Below, in pieces: positions 22,735 to 44,910 of a stretch of DNA of 64,000 nt (position 1 is its first letter; every line of letters starts with the position of its first letter). The DNA is taken from NCBI RefSeq assembly GCF_008693385.1, contig NZ_CP044066.1, positions 1 through 64,000 of the forward strand. Reading direction: 5' to 3'. The translations under genes and the position numbers were made by a program. This stretch comes from Cupriavidus pauculus. Its GTDB lineage: Bacteria; Pseudomonadota; Gammaproteobacteria; Burkholderiales; Burkholderiaceae. The notes under the pieces are model-generated. The model saw only the letters and a list, made by a program, of their open reading frames with translations, was not told the DNA's origin and did not search any database.

Positions 22735-22758
22735 GTTCGAATCCCCCTCTCTCCGCCA
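22735..22758 (+). repeat. 3' end of a tRNA-Ser gene (att-site scar)
   Basis: The 24 bases from GTTCGAAT through TCTCTCCGCCA equal the T-loop, acceptor strand and CCA of a bacterial tRNA-Ser. No tRNA 5' part precedes it (the sequence to the left is unrelated), so it is a 3' fragment of the kind left as attL/attR by integrases that target tRNA ends. A P4-type integrase remnant starts 230 bp to the right. Confidence 0.75.
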
Positions 22759-22782
22759 AGAATAAGTACGAATTCATCCGAA

Positions 22783-22806
22783 GCCGTCCAACTGGGCGGC
22801 TTTTTT
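22783..22806 (+). terminator. Rho-independent terminator of the tRNA-Ser fragment
   Basis: Stem GCCGTCC, loop AACT, stem GGGCGGC (one G-T pair), then six T. It lies directly after the tRNA 3' fragment, suggesting that a natural tRNA downstream region was carried with it. Confidence 0.8.
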
Positions 22807-22986
22807 GTTTTCTATCCCTTATGCAGCAACGGCTTGCTGGCGATATGCTGTCCTAAGTAGTGCGTAGTCGTCCGTCCCCAGCCGGTGAAATCCTGGGTAC
22901 ATAGGGGGGAAACTGGCCTCATCAACGACACGCGGGGTACCTCAAGCGAGCGCGAACGCGAGCTTTGTACTTCGAGGACGAGGGCG

Positions 22987-24202
22987 ATGCCACGACTCAC
23001 TGAGATCTAGCTCAAGAACGAACAGCCTGGAGAGAAGGCCCGCAAGATTTACGACGAGCGCGGGCTCTTCCTGCTCGTCAACCCGGACGGTTCGATGTAC
23101 TGGCGCGTGCGCTACACGCTCGACGGGAAGGAGAAGCTGACGCAGGTCGGTGTCTATCGGAAGAAGGGCACAGAGCGGGTCACGATGCGCCTTTCCAAGG
23201 CGCGCGAGCGACGCGACGAGCTACGCGATCTGCTGAGCCGGGGTTTGGACCCCTCGGCCCGGGCGGCGCGAGGCGTACGTTGGCCGTTGTGGTTGAAGAG
23301 TGGATTGAGGCGTACCGCCTCGGCTGGTCCGTGCAGCACGCACACCAGAACTGGCAGTCGTTACGGGACCAACCACGTCCTCCCAATCATCGGAGCGAAG
23401 CCGATGCGAACGATTGGGACCGCCGGCATCCTCACCGTCCTCCAGAAAATGCTTGCAGAAGGGAAGGCAGAGACTGCGCGGCGAGTTCGTCAACGCTTGG
23501 CCGGCGTCTTCCAGTTCGCAGTCCTGCGCGAGTACATCGATCGTGACCCGGTGCCGCTCGTCGCCAAGGAGTTCACCGAACTCCGCGCTCAGGCTCTCAA
23601 GATCAACCCTACCGAGTCGTTCGCTTGTATAAGCCGCGAGGAACTGCCGGCGCTGTTGCGAGTCATGAGTGCGTATCCAGGCATCGTGGTCCGCATCGCG
23701 CTCAGGCTGACCATGCTTACGCTCGCCAGGACGAAGGAAATCCGCGGCGCAACGTGGGCGGAGTTTCACGATGTCGATGGCGATGCGCCGATCTGGCGTA
23801 TCCCGGCTGCACGGATGAAGGCAAATCGCGCGCACGACGTGCCGCTAAGCCGCCAGGCCGTCGAAGTTTTGAAGGAGTTGCGAGGATACACCGGCGATAG
23901 CGAGTACCTGTTCCCACATGAGCGGAAGGGTGACAGGTCGATGAGCGAGAGCGCGATGCTCTACGCGCTCTGGTCGATGGGGTATCGCGGCCGTATGACT
24001 GGGCACGGCTTCCGTGCACTCGGATCGACCATCCTGAATGAGGCAGGCTATTGCACCCGTGGTGATTGAGCGCGCGTTGGCGCACGACGTCAGCGATAAG
24101 GTCGAGGCCGCCTACAACCGCGCCGAGTATCTGCGGTAGCGGCGCGAAATGCTGCAGTGGCGCGCGGACGTGGGAGAGCGCCTCAGCAAGCTGACATCCT
24201 GA
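22987..24202 (+). pseudogene. P4-type tyrosine integrase, broken
   Basis: The start ATG 22987 reads MPRLTEI and then an amber codon (23008-23010) before LKNEQPGEKARKIYDERGLF, the standard DUF4102-type arm-binding N-terminus of P4 integrases. Two opposed frameshifts near 23270 and 23370 displace VEEWIEAYRLGWSVQHAHQN. A long in-frame stretch follows (LRLTMLTLARTKEIRGATW with the first catalytic Arg, GHGFRALGSTILNE), and a last frameshift near 24055 displaces the Tyr segment VEAAYNRAEYLR. It is preceded by the tRNA-Ser 3' scar, the normal position for such an integrase, so it marks a dead genomic island or ICE edge. Confidence 0.9.
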
Positions 24203-28968: not shown

Positions 28969-29781
28969 TCAGATCCTGACGGCAACTATCTCTAGGTGGC
29001 GCGACATCTCGCGCAAGACTTCGATGCCTCGGTCCGTCAACGTGTCCCCCCTCATATCGACTAATCCCGCAGCCTTCAGACCAGTGACAACTCCGCCGTT
29101 GACCTGGTCGGATCCTCTGGCGCGCGTCCAAATCCCTGGGGCAGGTTCCGAGTCTATGTCGATTCCCCGATTCGCATAGAGTACGTACGACATCATATAG
29201 ACCGAGCCAATGCTGACTCCGATAGCACGGGCGAGGTGACGAAGTTCGTCTTCGAGAGTGCGACCTGAGCGGACGGACCAATCGTAGTGCTGGCGTCCGA
29301 ATTCCTCTCCGTTGCATCGGGCGTCTACAACCGAGAGATCTAGCAAATCTAGAAGTCCCTCGCCGAAGGCGACAGTGTCGCTTTTTACGGTAATGTCTAG
29401 CGTCCCCCTCGCGCCACCGCTCGCAAACTGAGCATTCATATCCAACGCGCCGTCGTGTAGGAGGCCGTTACGATAGTATTTGTACAGGAGCCACGCCACA
29501 TCCCGTTGCTCTCCCTTCCAGGCAACGCTGACGCCGCTCTCACCGACCGTTCCACGATTCCGTCGCAAAAAAAGTATGTCGTTCAGTCGCCCGCCAATGA
29601 AAAGGCGGAAGGCTTCGCCGTCCCCCATTGTCTTCGTAGGTTCGGCGACGGAGGGGCTTTTGAGAGGAAAGCGTCGTCGTGACGACGCCGCAACGGCGAT
29701 CATATACATCGCAAGAGATGCAACCGGTCTACCCGCTGCCCTAAGAAATCTTGCATCATCGACACGATCTGCAATGGTCAT
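28969..29781 (-). CDS. HEPN-motif protein, candidate defence ribonuclease
   Basis: 270-residue protein of unknown family. LLYKYYRNGLLHDGAL contains an Rx4H signature (R104, H109) in a helical context, the catalytic motif of HEPN RNases in abortive-infection and toxin systems. The C-terminal part (VNGGVVTGLKAAGLVDMRGD, LTDRGIEVLREM) looks like a winged helix. The position at the left edge of the island with a second HEPN protein, putAbiC and Wadjet supports a defence role. The HEPN call rests on the motif and context only. The ATG at 29781 is the only plausible start. Confidence 0.7.
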   Translation of the reverse strand: MTIADRVDDARFLRAAGRPVASLAMYMIAVAASSRRRFPLKSPSVAEPTKTMGDGEAFRLFIGGRLNDILFLRRNRGTVGESGVSVAWKGEQRDVAWLLYKYYRNGLLHDGALDMNAQFASGGARGTLDITVKSDTVAFGEGLLDLLDLSVVDARCNGEEFGRQHYDWSVRSGRTLEDELRHLARAIGVSIGSVYMMSYVLYANRGIDIDSEPAPGIWTRARGSDQVNGGVVTGLKAAGLVDMRGDTLTDRGIEVLREMSRHLEIVAVRI

Positions 29782-30003
29782 GAGTTTCTTGTCCTGCCTA
29801 AGACTGTTTGCGGTGAGACAACTGAGATTGGATTGCGAGTCCCATCGAGAGGTCTTGCAGCGGCCGATGCGGAGATTTGTCCCGCGATTGGGGCGGCCTG
29901 CTCATGTCAGTGTACTCAACAAAAAAAGGGGCGCCGCGAGACGGCCGGCGCCAAAGACTTCAGGGACGAAGCGAGGCGAGTATCGCGCGAGGGGACGTGG
30001 GAT

Positions 30004-31272
30004 TCAATTCGAATCTGACGACGCAGAGTCCCGGGCGCCGAGCACCAGATCATCCCAATTAAAGTCTTTGGCCAAGATAACTGCTTGTATCGCATCTGCG
30101 CACAAGGCAATGCCGAGATCAAGCATGTCTATCACCTTCTTGAAGTCGCTAGGCTTCTTGGGGTTCGCCACGACGCCTGTATGTACTGCATTCGATCGAA
30201 ACTGATAAATACTCTTTAGTTGGGAAACTATCTCTCGACGCTCTTCCAGCGTGCGGCCAAGAAGCCATGCGCCACGCATCCGGAGTTGAAAGCCTAGCTG
30301 GGCCGGATCGGTCTTTCCTGAAAGGAACAGGGCTTCTAGGGCGATGCCTAAGTCGATTGCTCGATTCACAGGGCTCCGGTGGCGAATCGCCTCGTTTAAA
30401 CGGTGTAGTGGAACATCTAATTCTGCTCTTCTCTCTTGTGGCAGCGTGAAGTAGGCTTCAAAAGTGGGCCGCTTTGCAAGTAGGTCGTCGCGTGTGACAA
30501 CGGTTGTTGAGCTCACGCGAGTCTCCTCGATAGCAGAAGACCATGCGTGGCCGATGTGCCCCTTCAACAGGCTCTCGTCGACAAGCTCTGTGTAAGCTCG
30601 CCAGACAATAGGTGAAGAAGGTCCAACGATAGTGAGTAGAGTTGCAACTCGTTGAAGGAAAGTCAGTTCCTCTACTTCTTCGGGCGAGAGAGGCTTGACG
30701 TTATCGGCTGAAGGCGAGAACCTCGGTCTTGGCGAGGCGAAGCGATACAAGGCGGCCTTGGGGATTCGAGGTGCCTCTCGCAGATTGGCCGGTGCCCGCA
30801 TGTTAAACATGAACGCATCCTCGTCAGACTGGGCAGTTGCCACAAGCTCTCCCAGATTTGATTCGGGAACATCCGCGGGCGGCGCGATAAATACGCCGGG
30901 TAGTAGTTCGGTAGTTTCCGTGACCTCTATACCTCCCAGCAGACAGACTTCGATGCAGTCACTCGCGCATGGCGATAGAAATGCGTAGAGATCATCTATA
31001 GCTTGACTTGGTCCCTTCGTGAGTGCGCGCGCAATGATGGCCTGACCATACTGATGGGTGTCTATCATATGGTGCGACATTCCTCGATTGAACAGCATCG
31101 ATCTTGTCTGCGCGATCTCCGGAATCTCGGCAAGTGCGTTCAGAACGGTTTCGGGGCAATGGTGGTAGGACGGGAAACCGGGAAACATGGCGACAGCAGG
31201 CTCAGTGCTTTCGGCTATAGCGGCTTCCAGCAACCGCAGCAGCTTTTCTCGATATAGGTCCTTGGTCGTCAT
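30004..31272 (-). CDS. Large HEPN-domain protein (Apea-like), candidate anti-phage factor
   Basis: 422 residues from ATG 31272 (MTTKDLYREKLLRLLEAAIA); the longer open frame to 31371 overlaps a lipoprotein remnant and is rejected. The C-terminal third has RAIDLGIALEALFLSG followed by SIYQFRSNAVHTGVV with R359 and H364 forming the Rx4H HEPN motif, the arrangement of Apea-like HEPN domains. The N-terminal 250 residues are unlike anything I recognise and may sense a phage or nucleic acid. HEPN RNases of this type block translation by RNA cleavage after infection. Same strand as the HEPN gene at 28969 but separated by about 220 bp. Confidence 0.78.
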   Translation of the reverse strand: MTTKDLYREKLLRLLEAAIAESTEPAVAMFPGFPSYHHCPETVLNALAEIPEIAQTRSMLFNRGMSHHMIDTHQYGQAIIARALTKGPSQAIDDLYAFLSPCASDCIEVCLLGGIEVTETTELLPGVFIAPPADVPESNLGELVATAQSDEDAFMFNMRAPANLREAPRIPKAALYRFASPRPRFSPSADNVKPLSPEEVEELTFLQRVATLLTIVGPSSPIVWRAYTELVDESLLKGHIGHAWSSAIEETRVSSTTVVTRDDLLAKRPTFEAYFTLPQERRAELDVPLHRLNEAIRHRSPVNRAIDLGIALEALFLSGKTDPAQLGFQLRMRGAWLLGRTLEERREIVSQLKSIYQFRSNAVHTGVVANPKKPSDFKKVIDMLDLGIALCADAIQAVILAKDFNWDDLVLGARDSASSDSN

Positions 31273-31309
31273 TGCTAAGTCCGCCGTGGGTGGGAGTAAA
31301 TTGCGTTCA

Positions 31310-31476
31310 GCTGGTACCAATCTGCTTTCGAAAGCGGTTGAGCGCTTGGATTTACAACTCGCATCCTCCATTCTCCTCGTACTGAGTCACCTGGATTCGC
31401 TCATCGTTACCGATCTGCAGCGTGATCGAGCAACTATATTCCACGGGGACATATTCCGTGCTGTAGGTCGCCGCGG
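31310..31476 (-). pseudogene. C-terminal remnant of a lipoprotein paralogous to 24856-25296
   Basis: The minus-strand sequence TYSTEYVPVEYSCSITLQIG, then NDERIQVTQYEENGGCEL, stop, and on to IQALNRFRKQIG, parallels the C-terminus of the 24856 lipoprotein (TYSTSYVPVNYNCSVTMEVD ... LNRFRKQIG). The stop after GGCEL and the loss of the N-terminus at an IS21-type end (31484) show it is dead. Confidence 0.8.
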
Positions 31477-31483
31477 TGTTGAG

Positions 31484-31538
31484 TTGCACCCGATCCTGAC
31501 CCACTAGGGCCTGTAATTTGCATCGAATGTTGACCCAC
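31484..31538 (+). repeat. Two tandem IS21-type terminal repeats
   Basis: TTGCACCCGATCCTGACCC (31484-31502) and TTGCATCGAATGTTGACCC (31518-31536), both followed by AC and in direct orientation, form the left end of an IS21-family element whose istA starts at 31581. The insertion cut off the lipoprotein remnant on the left. Confidence 0.75.
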
Positions 31539-31580
31539 GTATAGAACACTGTCCTGCTCGGCAACGCGCAGGAGTTCGGA

Positions 31581-31778
31581 GTGATCGACGTGGCCATACT
31601 GAGCATCATTCGACGCTGGCACCTGCGCGACCGGATCCCGCTTCGCGAGATCGCCAGGCGCTTGGGTATCTCCCGCAACATCGAGCGGCGCTATCTGCAT
31701 GCCGATGTCACGGTACGCGCCTATCCACCTCGGCACAGTCCGAGCAAGCACGACGGCCATGCCCCAAGCTCGCTGCGT
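31581..31778 (+). pseudogene. istA: istA remnant (IS21 transposase N-terminus)
   Basis: From GTG 31581 the frame reads VIDVAILSIIRRWHLRDR then IPLREIARRLGISRN, the N-terminal helix-turn-helix of IS21-family IstA, and PPRHSPSKHDG further on. It is cut off at 31779 by the end of an IS3-family fragment after about 65 residues; a full IstA has about 500. Confidence 0.88.
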
Positions 31779-31843
31779 TGACCTGCCCCCGGTCTTAGTA
31801 CGGCATGCGATTAGAGTCCGGGGTTAAAAACGCTGCCTTCCCC
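31779..31843 (-). mobile_element. Solo right end of an IS3-family element, inverted
   Basis: The first 65 bases after the istA break (TGACCTGCCCCCGGTCTTAG onwards) are the near-identical inverted copy of the right end at 32173-32237. It is therefore a detached right-end fragment lying next to a separate deleted element. Confidence 0.75.
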
Positions 31844-31849
31844 TGAGCT

Positions 31850-32237
31850 TGACCTGCTCCCCGTGTTTAGTACCGTGACGATGTAGAGTCCGTTCCCAGG
31901 AGGAGCGGTCATGAAGAAGCGATTCACCGAAGAACAGATTATCGGCGTGCTGAAGGAAGCCGAAGCGGGCCTGAGGCCCGCGGAGCTTTGCCGCAAACAC
32001 GGCATCTCGGAGGCCACCTACTCAACGGTCGGTTCCGCGACGAATGCCTGAACGAACACTGGTTTGTTTCGATGCGTCATGCCAAGACGCTGATTGAAGA
32101 TTGGCGCAATGAGTACAACACCGAGCGGCCTCATAGCTCGCTCGGCCACCTAACCTCTGCGCAATTCGCTCAGGGGAAGGCAGCGTTTTTTACCCCGGAC
32201 TCTAGTTGCGTTTCGTACTAAACCCCGGGGCAGGTCA
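31850..32237 (+). mobile_element. Internally deleted IS3-family element (388 bp)
   Basis: It begins TGACCTGCTCCCCGTGTTTA and ends with the inverted GTACTAAACCCCGGGGCAGG-TCA. Inside, the orfA start (ATG 31911 after AGGAGGAGCGGTC; MKKRFTEEQIIGVLKEAEAG) runs to HGISEATY and is then fused to the C-terminal tail of orfB (NGRFRDECLNEHWF, WRNEYNTERPHSSLGHLT). Almost all of the DDE domain is missing. It would be non-autonomous but retains both ends. IS407-like group of IS3, by orfA sequence. Confidence 0.87.
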
Positions 32238-32356
32238 TATCTTGCCCAACGGCTTGTGATGCGCCCGGCGGACTTGCCGGCTTTAGAGGCTACTACCGAC
32301 CCTTGACGATAGTTTAAAGTTGTTCCCTGATTGGCCGAGTTAGGTCAAAAGTGACA

Positions 32357-33361
32357 TTATCTATATTGTTTTCGAGCTATATCTGAGCTGAAGGCGCTGG
32401 CCGCTATACCGGAGATGACTGGGTCAGCCCGAATCAGAATCAGAATACCGTCGGCCTCAGTTCCAAGATTATCGAAAAGCGCATATTTGTTGGCATATTC
32501 GATAAATGGCTCGCCCCGCTGAGTCATGCAGTTGTAAACAAGAAAAACGAGCTCTATCCAAGAAAGTTGAGCTCTAATGATTGCGATGTACTGCCACTTT
32601 TCTTCTCGACTAATTATCTTCGGGTCAGATTCGTCGACCCATTTGATTAGTCGGAACAGGGTACGAAACATTCCATCGAGCTGATATCGATGTCTGTCAA
32701 ATACCGTCTCGTACCCATCCCGTGCCATATTTATTGCTGTTTCCCGTTGATCTTTTGACCAGTTGGAGAAAAATAGTGGGTCTTGCGGGGTGGAAAGACT
32801 ACTCCTATGTCGGCGTTGAAAAGTCGGCAACTTTTTCCCTGACTTTGAATCCTTCAGGATAACTCGCGCTGCGGTAAAGGAGCCGACGTGCATGCGTTTG
32901 AGTGCATGTCGGCCGATATATATTTTTTCCGGGGCCTCGGCATTTTCATTGCTGATGGTTAGCTGAATACTATCCAAGAGCTTATGGTATGAATTCAGCC
33001 AAGAGAAAAAACTGTTTTCGAATCCCTGTTTTGCTAAGGCTTTGTTCGAGATTCGCAGCTCGCGTAGTGATGCCTGCAACTCGCGCCGTTGAAGCTTAAC
33101 TGTGACAAGCACTAAGTAAACGGTTGCTAAGCCAACTACCGGGTTGATTGTGCCACCGATAAAATCACCAAACTGCCCCCATGCTTCACCTTTCTCAGAA
33201 AATGGGAGACTAATAAAATTTAAGGCGTACGCGGCTACGACACTAATGGCGATGTATATGACGATTCGAAAGACTTCCGCCGCGGATTTGAGATCGTTCG
33301 ATCCATCCTCATCGTCCATCTCCGACAAAGTTGGAGCTCCGAATTCTCGGTCATTTTTCAT
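32357..33361 (-). CDS. putAbiC-type membrane abortive-infection protein
   Basis: 334 residues. Two membrane segments near the N-terminus (about 31-52 and 70-90) flank WGQFGDFIGGTINPVVGLAT, the hallmark of the putative phage abortive infection protein family (putAbiC). A long soluble C-terminal part follows (FENSFFSWLNSYHKLLDSIQ ... YALFDNLGTEADGILILI). Family members occur in defence islands and are thought to cause growth arrest on infection, but the mechanism is unknown. The gene is visibly more AT-rich than neighbouring genes, indicating recent acquisition. It lies between IS remnants and the Wadjet operon. Confidence 0.85.
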   Translation of the reverse strand: MKNDREFGAPTLSEMDDEDGSNDLKSAAEVFRIVIYIAISVVAAYALNFISLPFSEKGEAWGQFGDFIGGTINPVVGLATVYLVLVTVKLQRRELQASLRELRISNKALAKQGFENSFFSWLNSYHKLLDSIQLTISNENAEAPEKIYIGRHALKRMHVGSFTAARVILKDSKSGKKLPTFQRRHRSSLSTPQDPLFFSNWSKDQRETAINMARDGYETVFDRHRYQLDGMFRTLFRLIKWVDESDPKIISREEKWQYIAIIRAQLSWIELVFLVYNCMTQRGEPFIEYANKYALFDNLGTEADGILILIRADPVISGIAASAFSSDIARKQYR

Positions 33362-34093
33362 GTCGAGTATTTATGATTGAGTCGAGGCGAGAATATTGAC
33401 CGATGGTGAAGGCTCATACCCCGCTGAAGAGGGGGTGTACGGCTGATGCAAAGATTCTATTTCGGCGAGTGGTTGAATTAACCCACTATGCCAAAAAAAG
33501 CACGCGGCATATCATTCAACGGCTTGAGCGTCCGGACACCGCGTCACTATGGTCATGAGTTCTGCTACTGCTAGTCTTGCACCGCCTTCGCATACTACTG
33601 TTCCGACGAGAATGTGTCAGAACCCCCATTTCTACCAACGCCAGTCCACTTTGGGTCGGACTAGCTGCGGCTGATTGTTAACGTCTTTCGGCCGCTGGGG
33701 AAGGTGAAGCGTAACGGCTGTTCATGGCCGACGTGAGCCGGCCGAGCTAAGGATCGCTAATGGAGAAGCGATTCAAGGGGGGGGGGTGACATGGAGAGTG
33801 TAGTCCGAAGGTTGAAATAACATTCCAAACTTCGCACCGCATTTAACATAAATTGCGTACTTTAGCCCGACGGGCACCGCAAACGGTCGGGGTTGGAGGT
33901 GGGTAGCCACACGATGCCGCCGGGAGTGAACTTGAGGGCTCTCTCAACTGTTGCGCTTTTACCGCGGGGGTATTGGTCCCCCCTTCGTGGGCTTGCCTCT
34001 ATCGGGAGTCGCCTAGATACTGCGCAGCACCGCGCTGCGGAAAACCAAGCGCGCAAACCATTCGATTTGTACGTCGTTTCCCTTGATACCGCG
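33362..34093. other. Upstream region of the Wadjet operon
   Basis: No separate gene recognised. It contains a 10-base G run at about 33776-33787 and an AT-rich patch at 33820-33865 that could hold the jetA promoter. The jetA frame is open from 33893, but its first 67 codons lack family character. Confidence 0.4.
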
Positions 34094-35593
34094 ATGGACT
34101 TTGATTGGAAGCAACGGACGAATCAGTATGTCCAAGCCAGGCGCCAGCATCCTGCCTGGCTGCTGCTCGCTGCGCGCAGCGCGCCTTTGGTGCTTAGCTG
34201 TCTTCAGACTCTTTTCGAAAAAGATCATGACGGCATTGCTATTGAAGAGGCAGAACTCGCGCTGGCCGCGATGCTTGAGGAGCATGCCAACGCAGAGGAG
34301 TTCGGAGTAGACCCCGAAGGGGACTTCGCGGGCCAAGCGCGGAAGGAATTGCGCGGCTGGATCCGACGCTCTCTCGTGATTGAGCGTGAAGGGCGAGTTT
34401 ACGCTACCGACGCCCTCGAGGAGGCACTCCGGTTTGTTGCGGCTCTCGGCGGTCGGCTTATGACATCGACGGCTTCCCGACTATCGATCGTGCAACGAGA
34501 GATTGAGAACCTCGAGTCGAGTCTTAACCCTGACCCCCGCACCAGAGAGAGATACCTTCAGCGCAAGATCCGGGACCTCGAGAGCGAGTTGCAAGACGTT
34601 CGTGCAGGCAATCTCAAGGTACTTAACCAGTCGGAGGCTGTTGAGGCGATCCGCGAAATTTATAGCCTCGCCACAAGCCTGCGTTCCGACTTCAGGCGGG
34701 TGGAGGACTCGTACCGAGAGGCGGACATGGCGCTGCGCCAATCCATTGTCAGCGAGCGCAGCCATCGTGGAGAGATTGTCGATAAGCTCCTCGATGGTCA
34801 TGACGAGTTGCTGGAGACCGCCGAGGGAAAGGTCTTTCGTGGCTTTCAGCAACAACTCGGCCGTACGGTAGAGTTGGATTTCATGAAGCATCGTCTGCGA
34901 TTGATTGTGAAACATCCAGCTACACGGTCTGCTCTGAATGCTCAACAGGAGAATGAACTCAGATGGCTCATCATTCGTCTGGTTGATGAATCTGCTGCTG
35001 TCATCCGTGCGCGGGCGCGCAGTGAGCGCGACGTCAAGGGTTTTCTCAGAACGGGCCTAGCCGCTGAACACCATCGCGTGGGAGATTTGCTTGGCGAAGT
35101 ATTCCAGCAGGCTTTGCTAGTCGACTGGAAGAGCGCGGCGGTACGGGGTGCAGATAGTCCTTTACCACCTGTTGGGTTGTCGCTAGGCGGATTGCCTGTG
35201 GTTGAACGCTTGCGCTTCAAAGTGTTTAGCGACGATGAGGGTGAGGCGCTCGAACTGAATGCCCAGCGTATGGACATAGCAGCGATTGACGACGAATTCT
35301 GGGATGCATTTGACGGACTTGACCGGCAAGCGCTCTGGGACAGCACGGTCGCATTGCTTTCCCAGCGCGGCGAGCGCTTGGCGATAAGTGAGTTGGCCTC
35401 ATCCCTGCCGCCGACACATGACCTTGAAACCATCGCACTCTGGCTAAGCATGGCCCGCCACGCCGATGCTCCGGTGGGGGTGAAGCGCGAGAGCGTCGAT
35501 GTCGAAGGGCATGATGGTCTGCTGCTTCGATTTGACGTGCCCATGATTGAACTCGGCATTGAGCATCTCCGCGACCTAGACATGGAGCTGTAG
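34094..35593 (+). CDS. jetA: Wadjet JetA (DUF3375, kleisin-like)
   Basis: 499 residues from ATG 34094 (MDFDWKQRTNQYVQARRQHP), chosen because DUF3375 proteins begin in this way; the frame is open back to 33893 but that part looks unrelated. It has an N-terminal winged-helix region with HPAWLLLAARSAPLVLSCL, a long coiled coil (about 170-260, REIENLESSLNPDPRTRERY) and a C-terminal winged-helix region (LPPTHDLETIALWLSMARHA). JetA is the MukF/kleisin-like subunit that bridges JetC heads in Wadjet, an SMC complex that cleaves small circular DNA. jetB begins 3 bases after its stop. Confidence 0.93.
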   Translation: MDFDWKQRTNQYVQARRQHPAWLLLAARSAPLVLSCLQTLFEKDHDGIAIEEAELALAAMLEEHANAEEFGVDPEGDFAGQARKELRGWIRRSLVIEREGRVYATDALEEALRFVAALGGRLMTSTASRLSIVQREIENLESSLNPDPRTRERYLQRKIRDLESELQDVRAGNLKVLNQSEAVEAIREIYSLATSLRSDFRRVEDSYREADMALRQSIVSERSHRGEIVDKLLDGHDELLETAEGKVFRGFQQQLGRTVELDFMKHRLRLIVKHPATRSALNAQQENELRWLIIRLVDESAAVIRARARSERDVKGFLRTGLAAEHHRVGDLLGEVFQQALLVDWKSAAVRGADSPLPPVGLSLGGLPVVERLRFKVFSDDEGEALELNAQRMDIAAIDDEFWDAFDGLDRQALWDSTVALLSQRGERLAISELASSLPPTHDLETIALWLSMARHADAPVGVKRESVDVEGHDGLLLRFDVPMIELGIEHLRDLDMEL

Positions 35594-35596
35594 CAG

Positions 35597-36352
35597 ATGA
35601 GCATTTTCGACACCATTGCAGCGCGTGTGAGCGTTGACGAAGCGCCAGGTGATGGGGCTCTCTCTGCGCTGGTGGAACTGCAAACTACGCAGGCCGATAC
35701 AACACTCCAGGCTGACACAGGCTATACGCCGCGGGAGGTCAAGGATGCCTGCCAGGAGCTCCTTAAATATGGCCTGCTGGAAGTCGCGAGAAAGCCCAAC
35801 CTCTACCGGACGGCGCTGGCCAAGACGGCTGAGGTGAATCGCATCCTTGAACCCTTCGATCTCGTGGTCAAGATTGACGATATCAGGGGCTTGGCATACC
35901 TCATCGTTGCCCAACCGATCTTCGCGGAAGGCGAGGATGAATGGTCGCATCCTCTGGTAAGAAGGCAGCGACTGACGCTCGAGCAATCGTTAATGGTAGC
36001 TCTCCTTCGCCAGCAATATCTGATCTTCGAGCAGGAGCGGGGTGTCGGGGCGGCCGATGCGCCCATAGCGGTTGAGGACTTGGTACCGCAGTTGCAGATT
36101 TACCTCGGCAACCTCGGCAGTGATACGCGCGAGCTGCAGCGTGCCCGGACATTGCTGGAGAAGCTCAAGGTGCATGCCCTGGTTTCCGAGATCGATCAAC
36201 AAGACCAATTCGTCATCCGACCTATCATCGTGCATTTGGCCAACCCCGAAAGCCTCCAGGGTTTATTGACCGCGCTCAAAGACGTCGGGACCGCCGCGTC
36301 ACCGCGGGCAGACGACCCTGCCGCTGCATGCGTGCAAGAGGAAAATCGATGA
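35597..36352 (+). CDS. jetB: Wadjet JetB (DUF4194, MukE-like)
   Basis: 251 residues; a winged-helix protein corresponding to MukE/KITE subunits. It contains YTPREVKDACQELLKYGLLE (about 45-64), VVKIDDIRGLAYLIVAQPIF, and the DUF4194 core RRQRLTLEQSLMVALLRQQY. In Wadjet, JetB dimers bind JetA and DNA. It starts 3 bases after jetA and its stop overlaps the jetC start as ATGA, so the operon is tightly coupled. The Ala/Pro-rich last 20 residues are variable in the family. Confidence 0.93.
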   Translation: MSIFDTIAARVSVDEAPGDGALSALVELQTTQADTTLQADTGYTPREVKDACQELLKYGLLEVARKPNLYRTALAKTAEVNRILEPFDLVVKIDDIRGLAYLIVAQPIFAEGEDEWSHPLVRRQRLTLEQSLMVALLRQQYLIFEQERGVGAADAPIAVEDLVPQLQIYLGNLGSDTRELQRARTLLEKLKVHALVSEIDQQDQFVIRPIIVHLANPESLQGLLTALKDVGTAASPRADDPAAACVQEENR

Positions 36353-39300
36353 CCTCGGTCGATTCGCACACCTCGATTGAGGCTCTGGTGCCCGACGCAG
36401 CCTTCGTGTTGACACGTTTGGATGTATTTAACTGGGGCCCGTTTGGTGGCCGTCACCAAGCCGAGATCGATATTGAAGGCACGGCGATTATCGGCCAGAC
36501 AGGTAGCGGAAAGACGACCCTCGTGGATGCGCTGATGACATTGATTGCCGCGCAACCGCGCTACAACTTGGCATCAACGGGCGGCCACGAGAGTGATCGT
36601 GATCTCGTGTCGTACGTGCGCGGTGTTTCGGGCGCTGGGCGAAGTGGTGAAACAGACCACATCGCGCGGCCAGGCAAGACTGTTTCGGGCATCTCGGCGA
36701 CTTTTGCCAATGGCAGCCGCACCGTGACCATCGCGGGGATCTTTGCCCTCGACGGCACCGGTTCATCAGCGACAGATCTCGACCGCGTTTGGCTCATCTC
36801 CAAAGCGGCGGAGTCGGACCTCGACGAGTGGTTGGAAACAATGCATGCCGGTGGCAAGCGTGCGCTCCGGCAGCTCGAGCGAGATATTGCCGAACTGCGC
36901 ATCTATGACAGTAAGAAGGCATATGTAGCGGAATTGCGTCGCTATTTCGAAGTGGGCGAGAATGCCTTCACGTTGTTGAACCGCGCGGCGGGCCTCAAGC
37001 AGCTCAACAGCATCGACGAGTTGTTCAGGGAACTCGTCTTGGATGACCGCGCGGCATTTCAGCGAGCTCAGGAGGTCGCATCTGAGTTTGATGATCTGGC
37101 GGCAATTCGCGAGGAGCTTGCCATTGCCCGCAAGCAGCGAGATTCCCTCCTGCCCATCCAGAAAAGTTGGGATCAACGCATCGAAGCAGCGGCAGCGCTC
37201 GACTTGCATCGACAACTTGCCGCCATACTTCCTGTGTCAGTGGCAATCCGAGGGCACAGGCTCTGGGCGGAAGTTGAGCGTCGCCTTGGGGAGGAGCTTG
37301 AGAGTTGCAATGCACAAGTGGCTTCGCTCACTGCTCGCGTGCGTGGACTTGAAAGCGATGCAGAGCACCAACGTGATCTGTACATTCAAAGTGGAGGGGC
37401 AAACGTCGAACTCTTGGAGCAGACAATCGACGCTGCGCGAGGACGCTACGAAATCGTCAGGCGCAATGCTCAGGACTACGCTCGGATGACGGCATCGCTT
37501 CAGCAGGTACCAGCCAGCACGCAGGACGATTTCATCGCTGATCAGGCGAGGTTGAGAACTCAGGCCAGCGATGATGAGGCGTCGCGGATCGATCTTGAGA
37601 ATCAGGCATTTGCTGCCGGGGCCATGGTGACTTCGACACGAGCATTGCGAGGCGAGCGGGAGCGTTCTCTATCGGAAGCCCAAGCAAGGCCCGGCTCCAA
37701 TGTGCCCATCCCGTATCAGAAGTTTCGCCTGGAGCTCGCAGACCACCTGAATCTGCATGAAGCGTCGCTACCATATGTCGCTGAGCTTGTGCAGGTGCAG
37801 GAGAAGCAAGCGCATTGGCGGGGCGCGATTGAGCGTGCCATTGGTGGTCACCGACTGCGAATTTTGGTGCGGGTTGACCACATACGCGAGGCGCTTGCTT
37901 GGGTGAACGGACGCGACAACAAGATCCATGTGCGGTTGATTAAAGTCGCCGGGACGGAGCGCCCTGCGCCTGCGTTTGAAAACGGATTCACACGAAAGCT
38001 AAATTTCAAAGAGCATCCGTACCAAGACGCGGTACGAGCGCTCCTGGTCGGGTTCGACCGACATTGCGTTGCCTCCCCGGAGGCATTACGCGAAACGCCG
38101 CACGGCATGACGGCCCAAGGTTTGATGTCGGGCAAAGACGGGCTCTTCGAGAAGCAGGATCTCAAGCCGCTCAACGAAGGCTGGCTTACCGGCTTCGACA
38201 ACAGCGATAGCGTCGCTGCGCTAGAGCGAGATCTCGAAGAGGTTCTGCGGGATCTGAAGACACAGGAGGCGCAGTTGGAGGTGGCACGTGCCCGGGTCAG
38301 CACGGCGACCGCACGCAAAGCTACACGGGAGCGACTATTGTCCTTGACGTTCGAGGACATCGACGTTGTCCACGTGAAGACAGCGCTCGATCGGGCGCTT
38401 GCGCAATTGGCTGCGCTTACAAGTGCGCATTCGGATACGACGCAAGCGAAAAAGCAGTGGGAAGCCACTAAGCAAGAACTCGAGAAGACGAGGAGCGAAC
38501 GAGACGATAGTCTTGGTGTTCAGGGCAATCTGATATTAGGACAGAAGAACGCGTCGACCGATCGACAGCGCATGTTCGCACTGATTGGTGAGGGCCTTGA
38601 TGCAACGCAAATGGCGTTGGCCCAGGAACATTTTGACCTAGAACGTATTGGTACTATCGAGGACCTTCAGCACCGCCACGCGAAAATTGCGGGGGACTTG
38701 CATCAGCAAGTGGAGCAGCTTACCAAGAGGATTACGGAACTCGAGAGGCAACTGGTACGCGGCATGGGGGCGGCCCAGACGATTGATACGGGGGCGCTTG
38801 CAGAAGTCGGTACAGACCTCGAGGATGTCCCGCACTACCTCGCGCGCCTCAAGATCTTGATTGAAGAGGCGCTGCCAGAGAAGCAGGATCGATTCATCAG
38901 CTATCTGAACCAGTCGTCTGATGAAGGCGTCACGCAACTGCTGCGGAGCATCGACAACGAAGTGGAGACGATCACCGAGCGAATCGCTGACCTCAATGAC
39001 ACGATGCGCAGAGTGAATTTCCAACATGATCGATATCTCAGGCTCGAGCCAAGGCGGGTCGTCCATGAAAGCTTACGCACCCTTGAGCAGGCCCAACGCC
39101 ATCTGCGCTCTACGATGTTGGTGGATGATCTGGGAGAGAGCCAATTTGCCGCGTTGTCGCGAATTGTGGCGTTGCTCAAGGAAGCTGCCGAGCGGCGTAC
39201 GACCGTGGGATCCCGCGCGCTGCTCGATCCGCGCTACAGACTTCAGTTTTCTGTCTCAGTCATTGCGCGCGGGTCCGGAGAGGTTGTTGAAACGCGTACC

Positions 39301-39672
39301 GGATCTCAAGGCGGTAGTGGCGGCGAGAAAGAGATCATCGCGAGCTATATTCTCACCGCGTCTCTCAGCTACGCCCTATGTCCTGAAGGCAAGGATCGAC
39401 CGCTCTTCGGCACGATCGTTCTGGACGAGGCATTCTCAAAGAGCTCACAGGCAGTGGCGGGACGCATCATTTCTGCGCTCCGTGAGTTCGGGCTACATCC
39501 GCTTTTTGTGACGCCGAACAAGGAGATGCGTTTGCTGCGTGCGCATACACGCTCTGCCGTGCTGGTTCACCGGCGCGGCTTACAGGCGACGATGACCTCG
39601 TTAAGTTGGGAGGAGTTGGACACGTTCGCCAAAGCAAGGCAACAGGCGGATCGGGATGAAGTCGCCAGTTGA
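36349..39672 (+). CDS. jetC: Wadjet JetC (SMC/MukB-like ATPase)
   Basis: 1107 residues. N-terminal Walker A GQTGSGKTT at about 49-57 after FNWGPFGGRHQAEIDIEGTA. Two long coiled coils (about 240-420 and 600-900) enclose a hinge-like segment near 490-560. The C-terminal ABC signature GGSGGEKE lies at about 985-992 and Walker B GTIVLDEAFSKSS at about 1020-1032. The order is that of an SMC ATPase that extrudes DNA loops. The ATG at 36349 overlaps the jetB stop; a start seven codons upstream is less likely. All motor motifs are intact. Confidence 0.95.
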   Translation: MTSVDSHTSIEALVPDAAFVLTRLDVFNWGPFGGRHQAEIDIEGTAIIGQTGSGKTTLVDALMTLIAAQPRYNLASTGGHESDRDLVSYVRGVSGAGRSGETDHIARPGKTVSGISATFANGSRTVTIAGIFALDGTGSSATDLDRVWLISKAAESDLDEWLETMHAGGKRALRQLERDIAELRIYDSKKAYVAELRRYFEVGENAFTLLNRAAGLKQLNSIDELFRELVLDDRAAFQRAQEVASEFDDLAAIREELAIARKQRDSLLPIQKSWDQRIEAAAALDLHRQLAAILPVSVAIRGHRLWAEVERRLGEELESCNAQVASLTARVRGLESDAEHQRDLYIQSGGANVELLEQTIDAARGRYEIVRRNAQDYARMTASLQQVPASTQDDFIADQARLRTQASDDEASRIDLENQAFAAGAMVTSTRALRGERERSLSEAQARPGSNVPIPYQKFRLELADHLNLHEASLPYVAELVQVQEKQAHWRGAIERAIGGHRLRILVRVDHIREALAWVNGRDNKIHVRLIKVAGTERPAPAFENGFTRKLNFKEHPYQDAVRALLVGFDRHCVASPEALRETPHGMTAQGLMSGKDGLFEKQDLKPLNEGWLTGFDNSDSVAALERDLEEVLRDLKTQEAQLEVARARVSTATARKATRERLLSLTFEDIDVVHVKTALDRALAQLAALTSAHSDTTQAKKQWEATKQELEKTRSERDDSLGVQGNLILGQKNASTDRQRMFALIGEGLDATQMALAQEHFDLERIGTIEDLQHRHAKIAGDLHQQVEQLTKRITELERQLVRGMGAAQTIDTGALAEVGTDLEDVPHYLARLKILIEEALPEKQDRFISYLNQSSDEGVTQLLRSIDNEVETITERIADLNDTMRRVNFQHDRYLRLEPRRVVHESLRTLEQAQRHLRSTMLVDDLGESQFAALSRIVALLKEAAERRTTVGSRALLDPRYRLQFSVSVIARGSGEVVETRTGSQGGSGGEKEIIASYILTASLSYALCPEGKDRPLFGTIVLDEAFSKSSQAVAGRIISALREFGLHPLFVTPNKEMRLLRAHTRSAVLVHRRGLQATMTSLSWEELDTFAKARQQADRDEVAS

Positions 39673-40819
39673 ACTGGGTGCGCGGCTGGCACGAGCTTGG
39701 CAGTCTGCCGAGACGCGTGTGGCGCGCTTGCTAAGCGCCGATGCCTGGCCCATTCGTCTTGCGATCGGGCGGCCTGACGCCAAGACGTTCAGCAGCGACA
39801 CGCTCGCAGTGAAGCAGCACATCGAGCTCTGGCGTAGTGTGGAAGTAGGGGTGGTCCAATGGGAGACGGTGACATATCGTGCGGGCCGAGAGCCAGTTGA
39901 GATCCCCCGATACTGGGAAATCAGAACGCCGACGGAATGGGTGGGCGCCGCGGCGGATGAGACCATTCTCCGTGAGTTTCAGCGCTTGGGTGAGGCCGTA
40001 CAGCGTCTTGATGCAGACTTCCATGCATTGGTGGTACGTCAACGGCGATGGGCGGTAGAGTTATCCGAAGAGGAACTGGCCAAGGTCGGGGAGGTCGCAT
40101 TGACGCTTGGGCGAGGCATGGCGGCAGGGCGTCCGATCCGCGCGATAGCTGTATGCGGTATCGATAGCAAGTTCATTGAGCGTAATCGCACGCTCTTGTG
40201 CCAGATGCTCGATCTTCGTTTTGACGGCCTTGTGTCTGAAATAGGTCTCGAAGCATTCTTGGGCGCGATCGACGAGGATGATCGGTGGTTATTGGTTGTG
40301 CCACTGACTGCCGGAATCTTGCCTTTTCGCCAGCAACGCATTCGTGCCAGTGAGCTTGAGGGACTGCCGGGTACCGTGAAACACGTGGTGATTGTGGAGA
40401 ACGAACGAGCGCTATATCAGCTTCCGACTTTGCCGCATGCAGTGGCGATCCTTGGCGCAGGCCTGAGCTTGAATTGGGTGCGGGATCCGTGGTTGGATGG
40501 CAAACGGGTGGCCTATTGGGGGGATATGGATACCTGGGGCCTTACCATGCTGGCAACAGTGAGACGAGCCATACCCGATTTGGCCTCCATATTGATGGCC
40601 AAGCAATGCTTCGATAGGTATTCGGAGCTGTCCGTACGAGAACCCGTACCTGCTGGTGACAGCGTCCCTGCGGGTCTGACGATGTCGGAGGCTGAGTTCT
40701 ATCAATTCCTGCTTCTGCAGGAGCGAGGCCGGCTGGAACAGGAATTCCTCCCATCGGACGCGGTGCATACTGCTTTCTGGCAGTGGTACGGCGGCGAGAG
40801 CAACGGAGTGGGCTCCTGA
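39656..40819 (+). CDS. jetD: Wadjet JetD (DUF3322/DUF2220, Toprim-like nuclease)
   Basis: 387 residues, overlapping the end of jetC by 17 bases. The N-terminal half is DUF3322-like (WPIRLAIGRPDAKTFSSDTL, VEIPRYWEIRTPTEW). The C-terminal half has the topoisomerase VI A-like Toprim: VVIVENERAL with the catalytic Glu (about 250) and YWGDMDTWGLTML with the D-x-D pair (about 288-290). JetD cuts DNA when JetABC loops a small circle. All metal-binding acids are present. The gene order A-B-C-D defines a type I Wadjet. Confidence 0.95.
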   Translation: MKSPVELGARLARAWQSAETRVARLLSADAWPIRLAIGRPDAKTFSSDTLAVKQHIELWRSVEVGVVQWETVTYRAGREPVEIPRYWEIRTPTEWVGAAADETILREFQRLGEAVQRLDADFHALVVRQRRWAVELSEEELAKVGEVALTLGRGMAAGRPIRAIAVCGIDSKFIERNRTLLCQMLDLRFDGLVSEIGLEAFLGAIDEDDRWLLVVPLTAGILPFRQQRIRASELEGLPGTVKHVVIVENERALYQLPTLPHAVAILGAGLSLNWVRDPWLDGKRVAYWGDMDTWGLTMLATVRRAIPDLASILMAKQCFDRYSELSVREPVPAGDSVPAGLTMSEAEFYQFLLLQERGRLEQEFLPSDAVHTAFWQWYGGESNGVGS

Positions 40820-41020
40820 TAGTATTCTGTCCAAAGAAGGCCGTAGGGCATCGTTTCGTGAGGGTGCCGAGTGTGCTCGTTCATTGCGGAGTCGGAATCG
40901 CTTTTCAATCCGGCCCATCCGAACGCCATCAAGGCATCATGAAGCTGTGGGCGCGGTGCATGGCCCGCGCAACATCTGGTTACTCTCGGAGTCCGGGCTT
41001 AGATTTTTATAGGCTGTAGA
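40820..41020. other. Post-Wadjet intergenic stretch
   Basis: No gene or terminator with a clear T tract is seen. Confidence 0.35.
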
Positions 41021-41260
41021 TTAGTTCGCGATGAAAACTGAGGCATCCCCAAGGATGCATTCGATCCGTGCGTATCCAAAGTGGCCCTTAACGGGTTTCC
41101 ATTCTTGATTCAGTGGGTTTCTCCCGCCCTTCCGGAGAACCTTATTCCACGAGGCCTCGCGGTGCGGGTTGCACGCGTCTCCCACACGGGTAGCTTCTAT
41201 CGCAACGCCTTGACGACTCGGGTACACCCTTCGAAAAATTATTAAGGCTCGCTCGCTTAT
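41021..41260 (-). pseudogene. C-terminal fragment of an unknown protein
   Basis: The frame is open from a stop near 41283 and reads SERALIIFRRVYPSRQG, then VGDACNPHREASWNKVLRKG and GYARIECILGDASVFIAN to the stop at 41021. Composition is protein-like, yet there is no good start (GTG at 41227 lacks a ribosome binding site), so I regard it as the end of a lost gene or a short protein. It faces the Wadjet operon. Confidence 0.4.
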
Positions 41261-41321
41261 AGATTCGTTGTCGCATGCGTGCTAGATTTGTCAGCTTTGA
41301 TGCGTTAAGTTGAGGTCTCCT

Positions 41322-42620
41322 ATGCTGGGCGATTTAGACGAGCTAGTGTTGCGGTGTCGTAATGAAAGAGCTCGTGTCCATATTGGTGAAGCGGTCACGG
41401 CCTATAAGGCTGGAGCGTACCGCTCGGCCGTCATTATGACTTGGGTGGCCCTTGCTTTCGATATTGTAGACAAACTTAAAGAGCTATCGATTAACGGCGA
41501 TGCCGCGGCAACAAAGACGATTGAAGAATACGAGCGCATACATAAAGACGGTGATATCTCCGCCTCACTAAAATTCGAGCGATCGCTTTTAGTCGTAGCG
41601 AAGAAGGATTTCGAGCTTTTCTCCGATTCTGAGTTGATCGAACTGGAGAGAATTCAGGAAGACAGAAACCGCTGTGCGCACCCGTCTCACAATATGGAAG
41701 GAGAGCCTTTTGCGCCGTCAGCCGAGCTTGCTCGCGCGCATATACGCGCTGCCATAGACTATGTGATGAAGAACGAGCCTGCTCAGGGTAGGCACGCGCT
41801 AGACATGGTCATGAAAATGCTCACGGGCGACTACTTTCCAACGAACCGTCGTAAGGCTTTCGAAGCGCTTGCTCACAGCCCTTTAATGACTGGGCGACAA
41901 TCGCTTGTCCGGGCTTTTTTGGTGGTTGTGTTGAAAGACTTGTTACGCGGCGCGGTGGAGAGTCGTAAGAGAGCCAAGTACATCAATGGCCTTTGGTTCG
42001 TTAAAGAGAAGCGCCCCGATTTGTGGCAATTGCTCTTCAACAACGAGTTCTCAGCCCTATCCAAGTCCCTTGATATTAAGGAGCACGGCGAGCGACTTCT
42101 GCTCATCTTGGCCCGCTTGCGGGATGGCTGGGGTGCCTTGTCGCCGGGAATCCGGGCCGGCTTAGTGCTGCTGGTACAGTCTCTGCCGGAGACCTCCATT
42201 GTGGACGTCGACGAGATTCTCCCATTGCCTGAGCTTCGGACGGCTGCCGTGACTCGGATAAAGAAGTTGTCTGCGGAGGATATCTCTCACATGCTTTTAG
42301 TGGAGGACATACCCGTTGAGATCGTTGATCATATTGTAGATTCCCTCTGCGCTGCAAAGAGTTACGCATCGGCAAACGGTTGGGTTGAGGCACTCGTCTC
42401 CGCATTATGGGCCGACTACGCGGCACTAACGCAGACGCACGCCGATCGCATCCTCGATTCAGTGATGAACAACCGACAGCTGAGAGACTGCGGCAAGCTA
42501 GATCAGCTCTTGAAATTCATTGCTAACCGCAGGTTTGGGCATGGTGTGAGGTGGAATAAAGTACTTGTGGCCACGGAGCGTGATCCATCAAACTACACGG
42601 CGCGAGACTCAGAAAAATAA
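41322..42620 (+). CDS. HEPN-motif protein next to Wadjet, candidate defence gene
   Basis: 432 residues from ATG 41322 (MLGDLDELVLRCRNERARVH). The N-terminal 160 residues form a helical domain with YKAGAYRSAVIMTWVALAFD and ERIQEDRNRCAHPSHN, in which R115 and H120 form the Rx4H HEPN signature. The C-terminal 270 residues are all helical and Leu-rich (HGERLLLILARLRDGWG, FIANRRFGHGVRW), perhaps a sensor or scaffold. No known defence family is certain. It lies 500 bp after jetD in the same direction and ends the island. HEPN assignment rests on the motif and the surrounding helices. Confidence 0.72.
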   Translation: MLGDLDELVLRCRNERARVHIGEAVTAYKAGAYRSAVIMTWVALAFDIVDKLKELSINGDAAATKTIEEYERIHKDGDISASLKFERSLLVVAKKDFELFSDSELIELERIQEDRNRCAHPSHNMEGEPFAPSAELARAHIRAAIDYVMKNEPAQGRHALDMVMKMLTGDYFPTNRRKAFEALAHSPLMTGRQSLVRAFLVVVLKDLLRGAVESRKRAKYINGLWFVKEKRPDLWQLLFNNEFSALSKSLDIKEHGERLLLILARLRDGWGALSPGIRAGLVLLVQSLPETSIVDVDEILPLPELRTAAVTRIKKLSAEDISHMLLVEDIPVEIVDHIVDSLCAAKSYASANGWVEALVSALWADYAALTQTHADRILDSVMNNRQLRDCGKLDQLLKFIANRRFGHGVRWNKVLVATERDPSNYTARDSEK

Positions 42621-42817
42621 GATGCTCAATTGCGTCTTTTCGCTTTTCGTGTATTGCTGAGCAGCTATTAGGAGGCTGCAAATCTGTTGGCGTATTGCCC
42701 GTCGGTCTGGCCGCCCAACTGACGCCCCGACACCTGAGTGCCACCCTGTACTTCGAACGCATAGAGATTTTGTAGAGCGCAATTTTCTTCTTCAGGGATT
42801 GCGTTCCTTGCGTTTCC

Positions 42818-44910
42818 ATGGGCGCAACGCTGCGCCTGAACGGCGGCTTCTACCTGGGCGGCCGGCAGGTCGTCAATCGATCCGGCTACATCAACCTCTA
42901 CGGAGCCGGCACACTCGGCAATGCCCAGGTGACGAACCTCGGCGGGTTCACGTACCTGCTCGGCAGCAGCACGGCGGCCAATGCAGCACCGGCGGTAACA
43001 GCCAGGTCACCACCCGCAGTGGCAGCTATACCGAGTTCTGGGGCTGGAGTACCGCTGGCAACGCCTCGCTGGTGACGGACGCGGGTGGCTGGGTCGACTT
43101 CTCGGGCACATCCGGTCCGGCTTTCGACCACCGGATCACCGCAGGCGCCATCGCGGGGGCGGGGCGCTTCCAGCTCGGCCAGAACGCCTTGACCGTGGGC
43201 GGCAACAACACCTCCACCACGGTGAGCGGCACGATCGAGGATGGCGGTGCCGGTGGAGGCACCGGCGGCGGGCTGATCAAGATCGGCACCGGCACGCTGA
43301 CGCTGAGCGGCACGAATACCTATACCGGTGCGACTCAGGTCAGCGCCGGCACGCTGGCCGTGAACGGTAGCGTGCCCGGTGCGGTCACGGTGAACAATGG
43401 CGCCACGCTGAGCGGCGCCGGCAGCGTGGGCAGTACCTTGATTGCATCAGGCGGCACGCGGGCCCCGGGCAATTCTATCGGCACGCTCACCGTCAATGGC
43501 GACTTGATGCTGGCCTCCGGTTCGACCTATCGCGTGGAAGCAGACCCGGCCTCCTCGGCGAGCAACCGTGTGGCGGTGAGCGGTACGGCCACACTCGGCG
43601 GCGCGGTGGTCCATGTCGGCCCCGACGGCAACTTCGCGTCCACGCGCCGCTACAGCATCCTGACGGCTGGGATGGTGCAGGGCCGCTTTGCGTCGGTCAG
43701 CTCGAACTACGCGTTCCTTGACCCGACGCTGACCTATGGCCCCAACGAGGTCACCCTAGCACTCGCACGCAAGGACGTGACGGACCCGGTCTCGCCCGTC
43801 TCGCCGGTCGATCCGGGCGCAGGTGGTGGCACTGGCGGAGGCGGCCCGCGCCCGATGCGCTTTGCCGACGCTGCGGTCACCGGCAACCAGCGTGCCGTGG
43901 CCAACGCACTAGAGACCCTGTCGGACAGCAACCCGGTGCACGAAGCCGTGGTGACGCTGCCCGAGGGCGCGCCGCCGGCCGTCTTCGACAGCCTCTCCGG
44001 TGAGGCCCACGCCAGCGTGGCCACGGGTCTGATGACCCTGGCGGGTGGCGCGCGGGCGCTGCCGCTGGCGCATTTGAACGACAGCCTGTCCGCCGGCATG
44101 CTGCCCGGCGCGCACGTCGCCCAGCTAGGCGGCCCTCTGCCGGCCGCAGCGTTACCCGTATCCGCGTCCCAGCCACTGTGGGTGGAGGTGATTGGCAACT
44201 GGCAGACCTTCGATGGGAGTGCCGCCGCGGCGCGCGTGCGCCAGCAGACGGGCGGCTTCTATCTGGGTGGCGACGGAGCGATGGGGAAAGACTGGCGCAT
44301 CGGCGGGGCATTCGGCTACGCCAACAGCACGCTGCGCGTGAGCAAACGCTCCTCGCGCGCCATCACCGATTCCTTCAGCGCCACGCTCTATAGCGGCCGC
44401 GCCTTCGCGCTCGGCGGCGGCAAGCTCAAATGGCTGTTCGGCACCGCCTATAGCTGGCACGAGGCCAACACCGACCGGCAGGCCAACCTCGGCGGCAGCA
44501 CGGTCCAGTCCTTGACGGCCAGCTATCATGCCAGCACGGCGCAGGTCTTCACGGAAGCCGGCTACGCCGTGCCGCTATCACCGGCAACCCAGCTTGAACC
44601 GTATGCCGGCGTGGCATGGAGCGATACACGCACGCGCAGCTTCGCGGAGACGGGCGGCTCGGCGGCCCTGCACAGCCCCGGCGATAGCAACACCCTGACC
44701 ACCACAACGCTAGGCCTGCGCACTAGCGTGCGGGTTCAGTTTGGTGGCTCCGAGGCGGCATTCTACGTCGGGGCGGGCTGGCGCCATGCATTCGGCGACG
44801 TGCGCCCGGCTACCACGCTGGCCTTCGACGGCAGCCAACCGTATACCGGCCAGTTCGGCGGCGGCAACCAGGACCATACCGGGACGGTGGGAGTGCGGTG
44901 GAGGTTTTAA
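42818..44910 (+). pseudogene. Autotransporter, 5'-truncated and frameshifted
   Basis: Residues GATLRLNGGFYLGGRQVV to LLGSSTAANA are read in one frame (from 42818) and the rest, from GNSQVTTRSGSYTEFWGWST, in another, so there is a frameshift near 42985. Then come passenger repeats of the autotransporter-associated beta-strand type (LIKIGTGTLTLSGTNTYTGA, about 43270-43340). A beta-barrel domain runs from PLWVEVIGNWQTFDGS to the C-terminal HTGTVGVRWRF, a proper type V signature. No signal peptide or start is present; the 5' end is lost near 42800. It would not be exported. Much higher GC than the defence island on the left. Confidence 0.88.

Follow-up and report, generated by a model that had tools for sequence, protein, structure and literature searches.

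Background

Wadjet is described, in passages of PMC10586767, as a system that extrudes DNA loops and cleaves circles of less than 50-100 kb, plasmids above about 100 kb escaping it; the same passages state that its operons may be present alongside plasmids of various sizes, or be carried by them. BxaP, a T4 defence resembling abortive infection (Abi), is presented in an excerpt of PMC10799925 as structurally similar to PD-T7-3 and as containing a DUF4145 (HEPN superfamily) part; according to that excerpt, P121A loses much of the protection, and PD-T7-3 itself does not appear in defence islands. For P2-like prophages, the gpA-gpQ interval is given as an anti-phage hotspot in part of PMC9122126. 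Here we describe a 13.7-kb stretch of Cupriavidus pauculus (GCF_008693385.1, contig NZ_CP044066.1), at positions 28969-42620 of the analysed window, the 64,000 nucleotides at the contig start, where a complete type I Wadjet operon lies together with a putAbiC protein (C) and three proteins featuring an R-x4-H motif (A, B and D).

Gene content of the island

Eight open reading frames (ORFs) were scanned in the stretch; lengths are in amino acids (aa) and coordinates are those of the window.

28969..29781, minus strand: protein A, 270 aa; R104/H109 in a putative AbiV/HEPN-like N-terminal part, followed by a putative MarR-like winged helix
30004..31272, minus strand: protein B, 422 aa from the ATG at 31272 (ORF 30004-31371); mixed alpha/beta N-terminal part, putative C-terminal HEPN-like bundle with R359/H364
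32357..33361, minus strand: putAbiC protein C; PF16872 at 56.9 bits (cut-off 22), E = 3.2e-15; PADLOC models AbiC, 1.7e-8, and AbiP, 8.8e-7
34094..35593, plus strand: jetA (DUF3375); PADLOC PDLC00452, E = 5.1e-236, aligned from residue 68; the ORF opens at 33893
35597..36352, plus strand: jetB (DUF4194); PADLOC PDLC00480, E = 8.4e-98
36328..39672, plus strand: jetC (SMC/MukB-like ATPase); PADLOC PDLC00511, 1422 bits, E = 0; Walker A at residue 56
39656..40819, plus strand: jetD (DUF3322 and JetD_C nuclease domain); PF09983, E = 8e-40; PDLC00532, E = 2.1e-157
41322..42620, plus strand: protein D, 432 aa from the ATG at 41322 (ORF 41310-42620); N-terminal HEPN with R115/H120, C-terminal part

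The stretch, on a large Cupriavidus replicon, is quite probably a mosaic defence island made up of five modules that are independent of each other. Its gene content, the family membership of the Jet proteins, C and D, the conserved R and H residues, the predicted folds and the prophage or hotspot positions of some A and B relatives support this. An earlier note on the same DNA had described a composite defence island: for Wadjet, putAbiC and D the description holds firmly, at the level of family membership; for A and B a defence role is what we infer. The three R-x4-H pairs listed in that note were all found, numbered from the ATGs at 31272 and 41322 for B and D. As an island, the stretch is of an already known kind; any novelty would lie in A and B.

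Proteins A and B

For A, no Pfam or PADLOC family was matched at E <= 1 (the presence of an AbiV model in these libraries was left unchecked); for A and B alike, no meaningful match was obtained in Pfam, PADLOC or NCBIfam. Absence of the two from defence catalogues refers to PADLOC 2023, Pfam and NCBIfam, with no literature search by family name. Relatives of A carry the newer Pfam label PF27329, and NCBI uses the name "HEPN domain-containing protein" for several B relatives. Both proteins are rare: A is found in 3 of 369 genomes of the class and 2 of 399 of the order, B in 12 of 398 Burkholderiaceae genomes (E <= 1e-10), the own genome being included in each count. Besides the proteins themselves, 4 relatives of A and at least 34 of B came up in protein searches, where for B and D scoring was restricted to the candidates with the most shared words. 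Among the 72,556 plasmid records of PLSDB, A has no match, and B has three, covering 28-80% of the query; B had no match in phage records.

R104, H109, D54 and E56 are invariant in all 10 aligned A rows; with three further relatives, R-x4-H is present in 13 out of 13, one of the patterns fetching viral A loci already containing the R. The residue following the R is N in six of the 10 rows, C in three and S in one. In B, the R, S and H, along with a Glu numbered E313 in the 422-aa protein and E346 in the ORF, are invariant in 32 out of 32 rows; R-x4-H is present in 34 of 35 once all relatives are included, the exception (P0040) having its R one place earlier, and in all 11 B loci. A, B and D were also considered as relatives of one another, which was rejected: profile-profile probabilities are below 1%, and the A-B comparison aligned both R-x4-H motifs without significance.

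Foldseek found no significant match to the PDB for the models of A and B. In a second structural comparison of the AF2 models, AbiV came top for the N-terminal part of A, being its best structural match, and a MarR-like winged helix was also matched, both weakly; for B (pLDDT 88, pTM 0.86), 2hsb, 4nqf, Csm6 and sacsin HEPN are among the top rows, again as weak matches. B would share with ApeA the arrangement of an N-terminal domain and a C-terminal HEPN, and marginally matches the ApeA Ec3Ap profile at the HEPN motif (E = 0.054); unlike ApeA, it has no PADLOC match, and a relationship of the N-terminal parts is not supported.

Some relatives of both proteins are located in prophages. Two scans of viral contigs for A gave 4 and 5 loci, 5 distinct overall. 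In locus L153, the A relative lies between a gpA-like and a gpQ-like gene, the genes there being those we take to be gpA, gpQ, gpP, gpO and gpN; in L154, L156 and L179, relatives of A are near lysis, tail or late-control genes, as labelled by eye. For B, 3 of the 11 loci are in P2-like prophages: in L117, a sequence found again in IMG/VR as viral contig L183, the relative lies between gpA-like and gpQ-like genes; in L126, a distant relative matched only at its HEPN end is beside gpQ, without a gpA match; in L121 some 8.5 kb separate the relative from gpQ, and its position is towards the capsid genes, outside the gpA-gpQ interval. gpQ is present in 68 of the 398 Burkholderiaceae genomes and, in all 3 genomes with both, B is within 10 kb of it. 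About 0.007 such loci would be expected, as compared to the 3 seen, by a rough, post hoc estimate that counts all 88 gpQ rows, fragments among them, and takes genomes to average 6.9 Mb.

Two viral contigs share another B relative along with its neighbours. On plasmid p1 of C. pinatubonensis a B relative follows HNH and phage-integrase genes, and on an Aminobacter plasmid one is located among metabolic and sugar genes. The total of PHROGs families is similar for B neighbours and control (74 and 59) and does not discriminate; the difference is in the names listed (portal, terminase, integrase), those for the B neighbours as a whole, rather than per protein, including portal, terminase, scaffold and origin-nicking. 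The island copies of A and B are not in a P2 prophage, since no gpQ match is present in their own genome.

Most likely, A and B are prophage-derived HEPN RNases of the abortive kind, as suggested by sequence, predicted folds and prophage positions; they would be dormant and have sensing parts of their own. The winged helix of A could serve as a DNA sensor or as a repressor of its own gene; in B, the N-terminal part may act as the sensor. The two may, with roughly even probability, represent families of single genes acting against phages, so far undescribed in that role and carried as cargo by P2-like prophages; the plasmid would have stacked both next to each other, alongside Dandelion and Wadjet.

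Three observations weigh against this interpretation. The bare R-x4-H motif is weak evidence, as 13 of 90 control ORFs with a length of 250 aa or more contain R[NDHS]x3H; conservation among relatives says more than its presence, for A and B as for D. The distant A relatives in L127, L128 and L178 are in settings without evident phage genes. Finally, 109 neighbours of the 11 B loci match 3 PADLOC models, no more than background; B would travel outside known defence islands, and catalogues based on neighbourhood would miss it. Housekeeping surroundings of the HEPN homologues, named in the earlier note as what would refute the defence island, are not the setting of those A and B homologues located in P2-like prophages, such a position being no housekeeping context; the distant A relatives without evident phage genes stand apart from these.

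Those distant relatives also bear on a different explanation, unlikely in our judgement, by which A and B would be the toxic components of toxin-antitoxin or plasmid-maintenance units, stabilising the replicon instead of acting on phages. HEPN domains are also found in toxin-antitoxin RNases, as stated in part of PMC9519451. In L127 (7844-10325), a ParA-like gene, a RelA/SpoT-like gene and a divergent A homologue run in one direction; in L178 (9678-11909), a short A homologue adjoins ADP-ribosyltransferase-like (DUF3990-looking) and HigA-like genes, all labels being by eye. The plasmid with the island carries a RES-domain toxin with an adjacent Xre/MbcA/ParS-type antitoxin (window 49273-50210, plus strand), about 7 kb from the island. 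Yet no recurrent small partner gene adjoins A or B in the loci, as read by eye without clustering, and some relatives of both occupy prophage accessory slots.

Protein D

The earlier note had D as one HEPN protein among three: the HEPN motif is there, and the identity is a narrower one. By sequence, D can be firmly assigned to the described anti-phage family PD-T7-3 / 'Dandelion', and an anti-phage activity is predicted for it. It matches the PADLOC PD-T7-3 model PDLC04108 at residues 10-169 (E = 8.1e-26); its family profile (16-401) aligns to the 'Dandelion' chain of PDB entry 9wxf (21-429, E = 5e-24), and the HEPN part of the profile matches 9wx2, 'Dandelion-hepn'. The near-full-length match needs the family profile: with the single sequence, the comparison to 9wxf covers residues 13-176 only. 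No publication was found on 'Dandelion' as a defence protein, the name being known from the PDB entry alone. The protein search gave at least 396 relatives of D, and PF27235 is a label carried by D relatives. R-x4-H is kept in 38 out of 38 aligned rows, chosen from 120 listed, and P121, directly after H120, is invariant in the same rows; all 80 D loci carry the motif, which is itself contained in one of the two fetching patterns.

D is like PD-T7-3, 9wxf and BxaP in its HEPN N-terminal part, R-x4-H-P motif and similar length; it differs in adjoining Wadjet, BxaP being compared by description and not by sequence. D would be a dormant HEPN RNase, activated by a phage trigger, probably sensed by the more variable C-terminal part, and stopping the host cell by abortive infection. 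For the island proteins in general, RNase activity, triggers and protection are likewise what would be predicted.

Two phage records, one of them phage P2-EC30 (AJ512676, 451-1050; its place with respect to gpA and gpQ not assigned), contain relatives of the N-terminal part of D, and relatives of D are found in 17 viral-contig loci, some near-identical. On plasmids, 41 PLSDB records match, the match extending over 80% of D or more in 7. In the five plasmid regions whose annotation was read for D, without a count, nucleases, a methylase or helicases are near some, and ordinary metabolism near others.

The earlier note had proposed to look for known defence systems around the homologues of each gene: those of D are found among known defence genes, those of B show no enrichment. 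The neighbours of D in the 80 loci (275 scanned out of 287; of the 12 dropped most are short or overlapping, two, in L029 and L085, long) match 190 and 202 PADLOC models in two sets (E <= 1e-15), counts that refer to heavily overlapping models, not to proteins or genes. The 25 models listed of each set are mostly of restriction-modification (R-M) types I-III, plus RT-TIR, MADS-like and HEC-01. As a control, 117 random proteins from 13 stretches, not matched in taxonomy to the D loci, match 6 models. By regular expression, a weak test, methylase/helicase motifs are present within 3 kb of D in 10 of 80 loci; beyond 6 kb the figure is 1 of 66, for the B loci it is 1 of 11, and the 13 control stretches have none. 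No neighbour family recurs in more than 3 of the 80 D loci. These R-M-rich neighbourhoods contrast with the published statement on defence islands (PMC10799925, as excerpted), which concerned PD-T7-3 itself.

The Wadjet operon

The complete jetABCD of the earlier note is borne out: jetA, jetB, jetC and jetD are open, uninterrupted, adjacent and in order, with type I Wadjet as top PADLOC models. JetC matches AAA_29 and SbcC_Walker_B, and JetD matches JetD_C, so that ATPase and nuclease domains are both present. The true jetA start is probably at 34094, where the PADLOC profile begins. JetC is matched in 4 of 60 genomes of the genus, the own one included (E <= 1e-100), and in just 2 of the 72,556 PLSDB records (E <= 1e-50).

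The operon is like other type I Wadjet in its four genes, their order and full length; unlike them, it sits on a 249-kb plasmid-like contig. By the described activity, it would extrude small circular DNA, to be cut by JetD, and so remove competing plasmids below about 50-100 kb. The 249-kb carrier, if circular, would be safe from its own Wadjet, as larger circles escape.

Protein C and the insertion sequence remnants

C is, by sequence, a clear member of the putAbiC family, and may be an AbiC-like, membrane-anchored abortive-infection protein, as its family name and two hydrophobic N-terminal stretches (hydropathy) suggest; the earlier note had already called it a putAbiC membrane protein, in agreement with the PF16872 match above cut-off. 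With the Lactococcus AbiC it shares the putAbiC domain and the match to the AbiC model; the match, in contrast, spans just about 80 of the 334 residues of C.

Traces of insertion sequences (IS) are found on both sides of C:

31372..32356, no strand: IS21 istA-like piece and internally deleted IS3-family copy, at about 31.5-32.2 kb; orfA start at 31911
33750..33775, plus strand: second IS3 trace, 26 bp only, 85% like the start of the IS3 orfA at 31901

The IS scars reported between the genes in the earlier note are therefore real around C, as IS3/IS21 remnants, and not seen elsewhere: between Wadjet and D none was found by repeats and megablast against plasmids, the only means used. The island would have been assembled by separate insertions, some perhaps IS-linked.

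The IS debris between B and C, together with the lack of a second copy of the arrangement on PLSDB plasmids (megablast), might also indicate that A, B, C and D are decaying cargo and only Wadjet is maintained. This is quite unlikely: the A, B, C and D ORFs are all full length, the conserved R and H are kept in A, B and D, and relatives at roughly 30-40% identity or above have similar lengths. Of the region at 26-45 kb, the four matching PLSDB records share nothing beyond IS pieces and the adjoining autotransporter.

Probable independence of the modules

In this stretch the modules adjoin one another, with A following the B stop after 222 bp on the same strand, as might be expected if A-B-C-Jet-D were one linked system. 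Against this, a Jet, A, B or C match is found in none of the 80 D loci (flanks up to 10 kb, often less); A was not seen beside B outside the island, since none of the 11 B loci matches A, and neither L127 nor L128, two of the A loci, matches B; in genomes G047 and G052, the stretches examined contain Wadjet genes and lack A, B and D. As the modules are not found together elsewhere among the loci searched, a single linked system is disfavoured and appears highly improbable.

The replicon and the surroundings of the island

The carrier contig, of 249,232 bp, belongs to a genome of 7.06 Mb in three contigs. Its size, along with a ParA-type ATPase gene at the contig start, makes a plasmid-type replicon likely, as the earlier note had assumed; between the two contig ends, no overlap was found.

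The AT-rich patches mentioned in the earlier note are present at 32-34 and 41-42 kb (GC 0.49-0.51 per kilobase, most others in the window being 0.55-0.65); they are not exclusive to the island, 1-2 and 6-7 kb being nearly as low (0.52 and 0.51). An autotransporter-like gene (42799-44910, plus strand), 87-93% identical to Cupriavidus DNA, directly follows D, and the GC content rises to 0.68-0.69 at 43-45 kb from 0.51-0.56 in the preceding kilobases, marking a sharp island border. On the opposite flank are two tyrosine integrase genes (20888-24069), one with DUF3701, and, by eye, a truncated second copy of the DUF3701-type integrase at 18864-19385. Sensor kinase-like and KaiC-like genes, labelled by eye, overlap by 44 bp at 57766-61333 of the window, minus strand.

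The 13.7-kb stretch stands out on its replicon for its defence genes. In 78 other ORFs of at least 130 aa, over about 110 kb of the contig, six PADLOC models were matched (E <= 1e-8): MzaA, DrmD, mad8 and three ZorB, none making a full system; an uncatalogued or partial system elsewhere on the contig is possible. The MzaA (1.9e-70) and DrmD (1.8e-52) matches, from the window and L002-L004, fall outside the island and were not traced to a gene. Eight large contig proteins, the MzaA and DrmD genes not included, were scanned singly: one, at 4700-8521 of L003, has two weak matches, SduA and PDC-M43B.

Conclusions

A and B add two small candidates for anti-phage genes: putative catalytic residues can be named in each, and both have relatives in a hotspot of prophage defence. 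With the operon between C and D, type I Wadjet is found in nature on a replicon larger than the size limit that Wadjet enforces: a large plasmid could, in this way, police its smaller competitors.

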